From Tissierellia bacterium (GTDB lineage Bacteria > Bacillota > Clostridia > Tissierellales > Tissierellaceae), in contig JAAYNS010000100.1 in NCBI GenBank assembly GCA_012520755.1, positions 1 to 40,815 of the forward strand: 40,815 nucleotides of DNA, read 5' to 3'. The notes under the pieces are model-generated. The model was given only the letters and a program-made list of their open reading frames with translations. It made no database searches and was not told where the DNA came from. The translations under genes were made by a program, and so were the position numbers. Shown one piece after another: positions 2,854 to 5,912 of the stretch; the stretch's first letter is position 1, and each line of letters starts with the position of its first letter.

Positions 2854-2887
2854 AGAAAAAGATTTAGGGTCTCCTAAATCTTTTTCT
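2854..2887. terminator. Bidirectional terminator between the NAGPA-domain gene and mbl
   Basis: A perfect 15-bp inverted repeat (AGAAAAAGATTTAGG / CCTAAATCTTTTTCT) has a 4-nt loop. A and T runs on both sides would act as U-tracts for either strand. It sits exactly between two convergent genes and touches the mbl stop codon. Confidence 0.9.
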
Positions 2888-3912
2888 TATCTATATCTAG
2901 ATGCTCTTCCTTCATCCGAATTCTTTTCTAGTACCTCTACCCAATCAAGGGACTTCCCTGTTCCAATGGCAACACATTCTACAGCATTTTCAGCAACTTT
3001 AGTGGTAATACCTGTTGTCTTTTGGATAAGCTTGTCCATTCCATAAAGAAGGGATCCGCCACCAGTCATCAGTATACCACGAGTGCTAATATCAGCTGCT
3101 AATTCAGGAGGTGTTTTTTCTAGAACCTCATGGATAGTTTCAATTATTTCTTGAACAGGTTCTTTTAATGCCTCCAGCATATCTGAAGATCCTACTTCAA
3201 CATTCATAGGAAGCCCTGTAAGTAGGTTTCTCCCCTTTACATTCATGAATTTCTCTTCATCATATGGATATGCGCAACCTACATTTAACTTTAGTTCTTC
3301 TGCAGATCTTTCACCTATCATCATATTATATCTTTTTCTAATATATCTGGTAATGGCATCATCACAATCATCACCAGCAATTTTTATGGATTCACTTAAG
3401 ACAATGCCCCCTAAAGAAATAACTGCTACATCTGTAGTTCCACCGCCTATATCCACTATCATATTGCCATTTGCCTCTGTAATATCTAGTCCTGCTCCTA
3501 TAGCAGCAGCAATTGGCTCTTCAATTAAGTAAGTCTTACTTGCTCCAGCTTCATTACTCGCCTCTATTACCGCTCTTTTTTCTACTTCGGTAACTCCACT
3601 AGGAACACATATTATCAATCTTGGTTTTAAAATCATTCTGCCTAAAGCTTTTTGAATAAAATATTTTAACATTCTTTGAGTAATATCATAATCAGAGATT
3701 ACTCCATCCTTTAGTGGACGTAAGGCAACAATATTTCCAGGGGTTCTACCAAGCATTTTTCTAGCATCTTCACCTACAGCTAAAAATTTATTAGTATATT
3801 GATCTATAGCTACAACAGAAGGCTCTTTTAAAACAACTCCTTTTCCTTTGATATATACTAAAATACTTGCTGTTCCTAGGTCAATTCCAACATCTGTTCT
3901 TAGAGCTGCCAC
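2887..3912 (-). CDS. mbl: MreB-like rod-shape protein Mbl
   Basis: The 341-residue MreB/Mbl family actin homologue polymerises under the membrane and guides peptidoglycan synthesis along the cell cylinder. Actin-fold signatures are clear: VGIDLGTASI (phosphate 1), MIVDIGGGTTDVAVISLGG (phosphate 2) and ILMTGGGSLLYGMDKL (adenosine motif). Length is normal for the family. The start is GTG at 3912, chosen because AAAGGAGGG lies 8 nt upstream; an overlapping ATG is out of frame. Mbl is preferred over MreB because the gene follows spoIIID, as in Bacillus subtilis, and no mreC/mreD is adjacent. Here a radical SAM cassette separates spoIIID from mbl. A sigma-A-like promoter of its own is visible upstream. 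Confidence 0.93.
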   Translation of the reverse strand: MAALRTDVGIDLGTASILVYIKGKGVVLKEPSVVAIDQYTNKFLAVGEDARKMLGRTPGNIVALRPLKDGVISDYDITQRMLKYFIQKALGRMILKPRLIICVPSGVTEVEKRAVIEASNEAGASKTYLIEEPIAAAIGAGLDITEANGNMIVDIGGGTTDVAVISLGGIVLSESIKIAGDDCDDAITRYIRKRYNMMIGERSAEELKLNVGCAYPYDEEKFMNVKGRNLLTGLPMNVEVGSSDMLEALKEPVQEIIETIHEVLEKTPPELAADISTRGILMTGGGSLLYGMDKLIQKTTGITTKVAENAVECVAIGTGKSLDWVEVLEKNSDEGRASRYR

Positions 3913-4031: not shown

Positions 4032-4112
4032 TGTAAAATTACGTTTAATCGTAGACTATTCATAAATTTTTCATAATTAATAAGCCTGAACAATAAAATG
4101 TTTTCTTCTAAA

Positions 4113-4147
4113 AAAAATCTACCCATTTATTTTAAGGGTAGATTTTT
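4113..4147 (-). terminator. Terminator of the radical SAM/precursor operon
   Basis: AAAAATCTACCC / GGGTAGATTTTT form a 12-bp stem with an 11-nt loop, followed on the minus strand by a T run. It begins 12 nt after the precursor-peptide stop and closes the cassette. Confidence 0.85.
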
Positions 4148-4158
4148 AATAATTCAAT

Positions 4159-4302
4159 TTACCAAGGCCTGCAATAGGGGCCACAACCATTAACAGGTCC
4201 ACAGTCATCTGGGTAACAACCATCTGTATCCAGTGGATAACAACCGCTAGTCATATGTATTTCCTCTTCTACAACATCCTCAATAGTTAGAAGCTCAATC
4301 AT
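4159..4302 (-). CDS. Cys-rich RiPP precursor peptide (47 aa), substrate candidate of the adjacent radical SAM enzyme
   Basis: This gene is too short for the ORF track. It reads ATG to TAA as 47 codons and starts 2 nt after the maturase stop; GGGGGTG in the maturase end serves as ribosome-binding site. The acidic, hydrophobic N-terminus (MIELLTIEDVVEEE) looks like a leader. The C-terminal half begins about residue 20 and holds all five cysteines (C21, C29, C34, C40, C44). Every cysteine is in a C-x-P motif: CYPLD, CYPDD, CGPVN, CGPYC, CRPW. Two are Cys-x3-Asp, the spacing that radical SAM/SPASM enzymes of the ranthipeptide class (such as PapB on PapA) join as Cys-Asp thioethers. I do not recognise a named precursor family. 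No exporter, protease or immunity gene is adjacent. The ORF, its spacing and the terminator behind it are seen directly; the substrate role and bond type are inferred. Confidence 0.85.
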   Translation of the reverse strand: MIELLTIEDVVEEEIHMTSGCYPLDTDGCYPDDCGPVNGCGPYCRPW

Positions 4303-4304
4303 GT

Positions 4305-5513
4305 TTACACCCCCAATCCATTTATAAATTCATCTATATCATACCACTCCCCATCATATGGGTTGTATGTACAATACCATGGTTTCTCTCTTAAATCTCC
4401 ATTAAGGGAATCAGGTCGACAATCATGGCAAGCATAACGATATTCGCAATGCTTACATTCATTCACTTGATCTTTCGTAAAGTCTATAAGATTATGCTTG
4501 ATAATATCTTTTAACTTGTCTTCTTTAATATTCCCATGTTTTACCCTTCTCTCCATAACACAAGGATAAACATTTAAGTCCACATCAATATATAATCTAT
4601 TTGAAAAGCAATTATGTCCTTGCATATTTTTTTCTATAGCCTTGGGAGTTATCTTTTTTTGAAAATGTTTCTTAGTAATTAATTTTTGTTTTAGTAAATC
4701 TTTATCGTATAGGTCCAAATTCGCTCTTCCTGACAACCTTACAAAATCATATCCAGACTTAGGATGAAGAGTCCCAATATGGTTTTCACCAACTTCTATA
4801 TCTTTCATTCTTACATTTGCAACACGGAAAGGAATTTCATTTTCTTTTAATAGTTCTATTGTGCATGTAAGATTATTATAGGACCCCATTGACTTTGTTA
4901 CCTTATCATGTTCAGAAGGAATATTAGAGTAAAGAGACAAAGCTACTTGGCTAATATTATTATCAATTAACTCCTTAATATCATTGTCCTTTATCAATGT
5001 GCCGTTAGTAAATATTTCAATAAACTCAAACTTATTTTTTATATACCTTAACATTTTAGATAGCTTGTCCCCAAGAACATAAGGCTCCCCTCCAATTAAT
5101 TGGATGCGCCTTACCCCCATATCTTCTAACATATCAACGGCATAACAAAAATCCGAGAACTTCATTATGCTATTTGAATACTCATGATATTCAGCCTCAT
5201 TATAACAATGAATACAACGAAGATTACAAGACTTGGTAACTTCAATCCATGCAAATGTTATGTTTGCCTTTTTTATGATTGCTTTATTAAACGCCTTATT
5301 TTCTATTGTTAGAATTTCATAATCCAAAAGTTCTTTTAGAAAAGTATTTTCAGACATAGAAAGCTCTTTTTCCTTTGGTGATAAAAAATGATTAATCATA
5401 TTTAAACCTGATTGATTAATGGAATAAAGACGCCTTTTTTTCAGATCATAAATACAATGTTTTTTTGCACCTTTAACAACATGAATATGATTATGTAAAT
5501 AATAGGTATCCAA
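4305..5513 (-). CDS. Radical SAM/SPASM peptide maturase
   Basis: The 402-residue enzyme should use a 4Fe-4S cluster and S-adenosylmethionine to modify a peptide in the cytoplasm. The radical SAM motif is C96-x3-C100-x2-C103 (CNLRCIHC), followed by GGEP at 141-144. A C-terminal SPASM domain carries seven cysteines (C302, C318, C353, C356, C362, C365, C381) in the C..CxxC-x5-CxxC..C pattern that binds auxiliary clusters. Residues 1-80 (VVKGAKKHCIYDLKKRRLYS) resemble the N-terminal region of other SPASM peptide maturases and may bind the leader. The start is TTG at 5513, supported by TATGGAGG 7 nt upstream. The Cys-rich precursor follows after 2 nt. A sigma-A-like promoter precedes it, and terminators flank the pair. 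A thioether-forming (ranthipeptide-like) enzyme is the best guess; other SPASM chemistries are possible. Confidence 0.9.
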   Translation of the reverse strand: MDTYYLHNHIHVVKGAKKHCIYDLKKRRLYSINQSGLNMINHFLSPKEKELSMSENTFLKELLDYEILTIENKAFNKAIIKKANITFAWIEVTKSCNLRCIHCYNEAEYHEYSNSIMKFSDFCYAVDMLEDMGVRRIQLIGGEPYVLGDKLSKMLRYIKNKFEFIEIFTNGTLIKDNDIKELIDNNISQVALSLYSNIPSEHDKVTKSMGSYNNLTCTIELLKENEIPFRVANVRMKDIEVGENHIGTLHPKSGYDFVRLSGRANLDLYDKDLLKQKLITKKHFQKKITPKAIEKNMQGHNCFSNRLYIDVDLNVYPCVMERRVKHGNIKEDKLKDIIKHNLIDFTKDQVNECKHCEYRYACHDCRPDSLNGDLREKPWYCTYNPYDGEWYDIDEFINGLGV

Positions 5514-5531
5514 CTTTCAACCTCCATAGAA

Positions 5532-5560
5532 TTTATATATCGAATTGTAAAATTAGACAA
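5532..5560 (-). promoter_or_regulatory. Predicted sigma-A promoter of the radical SAM cassette
   Basis: On the minus strand TTGTCT and TATAAA are 17 nt apart, about 20 nt upstream of the TTG start. The -35 hexamer matches that of the predicted mbl promoter. I see no sigma-E, F or G pattern here, so expression is more likely vegetative than sporulation-specific. Confidence 0.45.
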
Positions 5561-5635
5561 CAATAATTCTACCAAAAAATACATTTAAATTTATTATACA
5601 TAATCATAGGTCCAGTTACAACAAAAACATGAAAA

Positions 5636-5656
5636 AGGTCCCAGCCCCTGGAACCT
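5636..5656 (-). terminator. Terminator of spoIIID
   Basis: AGGTTCCAG-GGG-CTGGGACCT (minus strand, 9-bp stem with one G-U pair) is followed by TTTTTC. It overlaps the spoIIID stop codon and insulates spoIIID from the radical SAM cassette. Confidence 0.85.
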
Positions 5657-5912
5657 ATTCAGCTTTTACAGTCTCATATTTTAATTTAGTTGCTTTCCCG
5701 CCTCTTATATGACGTTCGGCTTTGTTAATTTCTAAAATTTCCTTTACCATAGATGCCACAAGAGGGTTTATCTTTGGAAGACGCTCAGTTACATCCTTGT
5801 GTACAGTGCTCTTACTAACTCCAAATACTGAAGCTGCTTGTCTGACTGTAGCCTTTTCACTAAGTATATATTTGGCAATCTCTAAAGCTCTTTCCTCTAT
5901 ATAATCTTTCAC
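5655..5912 (-). CDS. spoIIID: Sporulation transcriptional regulator SpoIIID
   Basis: The 85-residue DNA-binding protein tunes the sigma-E regulon in the mother cell and helps switch on sigK. The helix-turn-helix VRQAASVFGVSKSTVHKDVT is followed by the family-diagnostic ERLPKINP and the basic tail RHIRGGKATKLKY. Length is close to the 93 residues of B. subtilis. The start is GTG at 5912, with AGAAGGGGG about 8 nt upstream. It lies 50 nt after the spoIIQ-like gene, with a sigma-E-like promoter in that gap and its own terminator behind it. Confidence 0.96.
   Translation of the reverse strand: MKDYIEERALEIAKYILSEKATVRQAASVFGVSKSTVHKDVTERLPKINPLVASMVKEILEINKAERHIRGGKATKLKYETVKAE

Follow-up and report, generated by a model that had tools for sequence, protein, structure and literature searches.

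A rare radical SAM/SPASM maturase with a C-x-P-rich partner peptide between spoIIID and mbl of a Tissierellia bacterium

Thioether bonds are an established outcome for the Cys-rich precursors of several radical SAM RiPP maturases, and the CteB leader is known to dock onto the RRE in the form of a beta strand (PMC8326336). In CX3D motifs, PapB connects Cys with Asp (PMC9413430). Here, we analyse a two-gene cassette of a Tissierellia bacterium within a window of 40,815 nt (i.e., the whole stretch of DNA studied, contig JAAYNS010000100.1). With SCIFF/CteB (TIGR03974) the cassette shares the two genes, the Cys-rich precursor and an enzyme with RRE-like, radical SAM and SPASM parts, but it differs in its maturase clade, in the C-x-P signature of its peptide and in being accessory while SCIFF is near-universal. 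Like PapB/PapA (freyrasin), it shows a repeated Cys motif within one peptide and multiple predicted thioethers; PapA, however, has CX3D where the precursor studied here has C-x-P. The CcpM/CLI_3235 systems likewise feature a small Cys-rich clostridial precursor and a related N-terminal domain, but their candidate precursors, where seen, are rich in C-x-C, contain 0-1 C-x-P and carry an MKKLGKK-type leader. The SPASM region of Grasp-with-SPASM aligns to maturase residues 279-392, whereas the spoIIID-mbl interval holds no ATP-grasp gene.

The maturase is encoded on the minus strand at 4305-5513 (402 aa, TTG start behind GGAGG). Two bases past its stop begins the precursor ORF (4159-4302, minus strand, ATG start behind GGGGGTG), which encodes the 47-aa peptide MIELLTIEDVVEEEIHMTSGCYPLDTDGCYPDDCGPVNGCGPYCRPW. 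SpoIIID (5655-5912, 146.8 bits vs. a cut-off of 111.5) forms the upstream and MreB/Mbl (2887-3912) the downstream flank, and the neighbouring genes in the window include neither an exporter nor a protease or immunity gene. ORFs, domains and flanks confirm the initial annotation of a radical SAM/SPASM plus precursor cassette between spoIIID and mbl, and the reported lack of those three gene types beside it is borne out as well. The pair is a small accessory operon between two housekeeping genes. Its GC content carries no strong foreign signal (maturase 30.5% vs. 33.7% for the window).

With regard to expression, a sigma-A-like promoter (TTGTAA-17-TATAAT, 10/12 consensus score) is located at 5593-5621 on the minus strand. 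Promoter-like matches are as frequent as in shuffles (13 found vs. 11.8 expected), and the conservation of this one in the sister species described below, i.e., as TTGATA-17-TATAAT, is better evidence for a promoter than its consensus score. An intrinsic terminator follows 3' of the precursor (4112-4147, minus strand, -15.8 kcal/mol, z -4.5; -16.4 kcal/mol in the sister species), while the spoIIID terminator (5630-5656, minus strand, -14.5 kcal/mol, z -2.2), which is present at the empty site too, shields the cassette from spoIIID. Sister-species conservation and folding thus uphold the annotated combination of an own sigma-A-like promoter and terminators on both sides. Between promoter and maturase start, we also observe an inverted repeat ATTGT-N11-ACAAT (5540-5560) that is retained in the sister species and could be an operator.

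The maturase shows the Pfam domains Radical_SAM (E 3.5e-16) and SPASM (E 2e-6). Its CNLRCIHC motif covers residues 96-103, and seven SPASM cysteines (C302, C318, C353, C356, C362, C365, C381) do not vary among the aligned relatives, which agrees with the radical SAM site and seven-cysteine SPASM domain annotated before. The SPASM domain bears a KPWYCTYNPY tail, and an RRE-like domain occupies about residues 1-70. In the AlphaFold model (mean pLDDT 80.5), the N-terminal part consists of three strands and two helices and is followed by the radical SAM barrel and the SPASM region. The top PDB match of the model is CteB, i.e., an RRE- and SPASM-containing RiPP maturase (E 1.2e-14), followed by SkfB, TigE and SuiB; since the TM-scores to solved structures are about 0.5, the domain arrangement is uncertain. 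Profile comparison of the N-terminal domains gives a probability of 94% for CcpM maturases and no match for SCIFF. Taken together, the locus presents the general features of radical SAM RiPPs, i.e., the motif, the SPASM domain, the RRE-like domain and, linked to the enzyme, a precursor whose leader and core are conserved.

We also compared the maturase with NCBIfam models, none of which comes near its cut-off. Among the 25 best families (weakest shown 46 bits), it reaches 64 bits for the sactipeptide model AlbA (NF012164, cut-off 850), 62 bits for Grasp-with-SPASM (TIGR04193, cut-off 175), 60 bits for CcpM/CLI_3235 (TIGR04068, cut-off 500) and 56 bits for PapB (NF047865, cut-off 340). The SCIFF model TIGR03974 (cut-off 425) is not among these 25 best, and neither is Clo7bot (TIGR04334), whose reference sequences themselves score below the family cut-off. 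In the tree, the family, its more distant members L074 and L075 (found by profile) and L016 form one maturase clade with 100/100 support, separate from CcpM, SCIFF and Clo7bot-like maturases. The phylogeny suggested by the initial annotation has thus placed the enzyme in a clade distinct from CcpM and SCIFF and in no characterised class among those testable. The cassette is real, functional-looking and outside every family for which the test was conclusive.

Membership in SCIFF is refuted by the model scores and by the different, well-supported parts of the tree. The same genome holds a separate canonical SCIFF maturase (contig C193, 687 bits vs. a cut-off of 425), i.e., the cassette is additional to SCIFF. 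One could still regard the pair as a SCIFF relative, that is, as a conserved clostridial two-gene signalling ranthipeptide, given its two-gene layout and a divergent HTH/TPR regulator beside the locus of Clostridium sp. Cult1. This is very unlikely in view of the genome's own SCIFF maturase, the separate clades and the different distributions: SCIFF exceeds its cut-off in 10/13 relatives, while a relative of the cassette occurs in 3/249 genomes of the order. The proposed resemblance to SCIFF therefore holds for the two-gene layout alone and fails for the enzyme lineage.

The family scan covered one genome per species for 85,462 species. Relatives were found in Tissierellia, Clostridia, Lutispora, Oscillospiraceae, Synergistaceae and Bacteroidales, with the family maturase in single copy in each genome checked. 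A search of viral contigs and phages gave zero relatives, and one of plasmids gave distant matches only (below 30%). Judged by these data, the enzyme-peptide pair is a rare, widely scattered family outside all described peptide classes tested.

To localize the cassette among relatives, 22 orthologous spoIIID loci including the window were compared (two distant paralogues excluded). It is present in the window and in the sister species G003 (locus L006, a Tissierellia bacterium), whose maturase is 86% identical, while mbl is directly adjacent in 17 loci. For the remaining 3/22 (L047, L048, L054), mbl was not seen within the fetched flank, for which other insertions or contig ends are possible reasons. 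The site is empty in two congeners. In one of them (G002) it is clean, i.e., the spoIIID terminator is immediately followed by the conserved region upstream of mbl, and the missing segment corresponds to 4041-5631 (minus strand, about 1.6 kb, boundaries good to ~20 bases). Inspection by eye showed neither a target-site duplication nor a transposase at the insertion. The two carriers are sisters (mbl identity 89.5% vs. 80-82%), and the cassette has diverged between them about as much as the neighbouring genes. Thus, a single event would suffice for the occupied site, with gain and loss indistinguishable. The third of the 3/249 carriers in the order has its copy at an unrelated site. The cassette is hence accessory. 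The initial annotation had named as its refutation a cassette that is universal in this interval of the order and belongs to a characterised class; the data contradict the former and show no characterised class among those testable.

The precursor combines a leader starting MIELLT... with the core units CYP, CYP, CGP, CGP and CRP. That is, all five of its cysteines are part of C-x-P, a number reached in 0/200,000 shuffles of the peptide. Ten family peptides together hold 50 C-x-P units vs. 8.2 expected (maximum 19 in 20,000 shuffles of the cores). The share of cysteines in C-x-P is similarly high in Lutispora (7/7) and Synergistaceae (5/6 and 6/6); the exceptions are isolated cysteines of the leader and a CC pair. 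Outside Bacteroidales, 1-3 small C-x-P ORFs adjoin every family maturase save the IS-broken L017, whereas of 4,964 ORFs at 76 control loci, only one has at least three units. Most Bacillota peptides have a leader starting with M[IL]E[LM]. Within four Bacteroidales loci, a small ORF just upstream of the maturase ends in RCCP[GH]EYI followed by 1-2 further residues, i.e., the partner has a single CCP unit only. The distant L074 maturase adjoins a 161-aa ORF (3225-3710) with 28 C-x-P units in QCRPCPPS repeats, which raises the question whether long repeat proteins can be substrates of these enzymes. Also beside the L075 maturase, a long Cys-Pro repeat protein is found (797-1366) with a masked stretch inside the repeat.

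Pfam and NCBIfam searches with the precursor gave zero matches. Literature searches, mostly covering journals without subscription, found nothing on C-x-P in radical SAM RiPPs. What is new is the maturase clade with its shared C-x-P partner signature, while the parts it is built from are those of known radical SAM RiPPs. An uncharacterised maturase clade is thereby tied to a one-line substrate rule across three phyla, and its two-gene form is easy to reconstitute.

Comparing window and G003, the maturase shows a dN of 0.063 and a dS of 0.253 (dN/dS about 0.25). For the precursor, all three replacements are in the leader (positions 11, 15, 16), while the core counts 4 silent changes and 0 replacements and is thus under purifying selection. 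Given dN/dS and the unchanged core, maturase and precursor both behave as real genes.

Overall, we consider it fairly probable that the maturase, guided by its RRE, modifies every C-x-P unit with thioethers as the most likely products and, less certainly, that the peptide has an accessory role in signalling or competition. That the maturase modifies its partner peptide at all is very probable. The peptide would be made ribosomally and then modified post-translationally: the RRE-like N-terminal domain would bind the short leader, and the radical SAM centre, helped by two SPASM clusters, would act once per C-x-P unit and connect the sulphur of each cysteine with a carbon nearby, most likely by a thioether. 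With up to five such bonds, the tail of roughly 30 residues may become a rigid peptide, which would presumably be exported.

A strict ranthipeptide overlaps with this explanation and narrows its chemistry, i.e., PapB-like thioethers would connect Cys to side-chain carbons of Asp, Asn or Glu, with Pro only setting the turn. C21 and C29 are indeed within CX3D (CYPLD, CYPDD) and C34 within CX3N, and D is the commonest residue at +3 of the C-x-P units (19/50), with D/N/E frequent at +4. On the other hand, no acid follows shortly after C40 or C44, the maturase scores far below the cut-off of the PapB model, and L016 as well as the L074 repeats are mostly without acids yet keep C-x-P, such that we treat this version as a tentative alternative. 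Potential acceptors vary, i.e., Asp, Asn and Glu are frequent behind the motif but absent from the L074 repeats, and a single Cys-Asp rule can therefore not cover all peptides. Since the acids are variable and Pro is conserved across the family, the +2 proline may be a conformational requirement or an acceptor. A bond new to RiPPs that requires this proline, e.g., a Cys-to-Pro or Cys-to-x crosslink per C-x-P unit (up to 28 per protein), is rather unlikely. The peptide could also bind metal unmodified while the enzyme acts on another substrate, in line with the high Cys density and the long L074 repeats. Precursor and maturase, however, co-occur in Bacillota, Synergistota and Bacteroidota, and no second candidate substrate common to the family loci is seen next to the maturases, which leaves this reading highly improbable.

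The biological role is the least certain part. An accessory signalling or competition peptide, useful to some strains, suits the patchy carriage and the broken copies (L017, L008) better than a housekeeping or sporulation role. A sporulation-specific role was rejected as the main reading, since relatives lie at other loci and also occur in non-sporulating groups; the location next to a sporulation gene looks incidental. The link to sporulation raised in the initial annotation is weakened by these relatives at unrelated loci, among them Bacteroidales and Synergistaceae. The signalling or intracellular role that it also considered may still apply. Patchiness and broken copies also resemble an antagonism trait, e.g., a sactipeptide-type bacteriocin with an unlinked transporter, and the nearer models and structures include AlbA, StsB and SkfB. 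We nevertheless doubt that the cassette encodes one, given the AlbA score of the maturase, the missing exporter, protease and immunity gene next to the window cassette and a leader without double-glycine.

Several loci of relatives show further features. In Clostridium algifaecis, the maturase gene is split by an IS21-like element with IstA-like and IstB-like ORFs (L017:3099-6984). The Cult1 copy is adjoined by its divergent HTH/TPR regulator (L008:4655-5788), and its maturase is truncated, i.e., it is short of about 24 residues at the N-terminus and of about ten more at an internal position. Two Bacteroidales maturases (L014:4368-9900, L015:4521-10874) are flanked by an RyR-domain/zinc-ribbon protein and by WD40 or TIR-NACHT proteins, where the WD40 neighbour has a TIR-like N-terminus. 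This is possibly a conflict-system setting, and the vicinity of TIR, RyR and NACHT genes raises the question whether some peptides belong to conflict systems. At another Bacteroidales locus (L012:1521-3510), the maturase is accompanied by another radical SAM protein and by one more small Cys-rich ORF, DCSDSFRNCYGCQGDCSGNCTGTCEGC.
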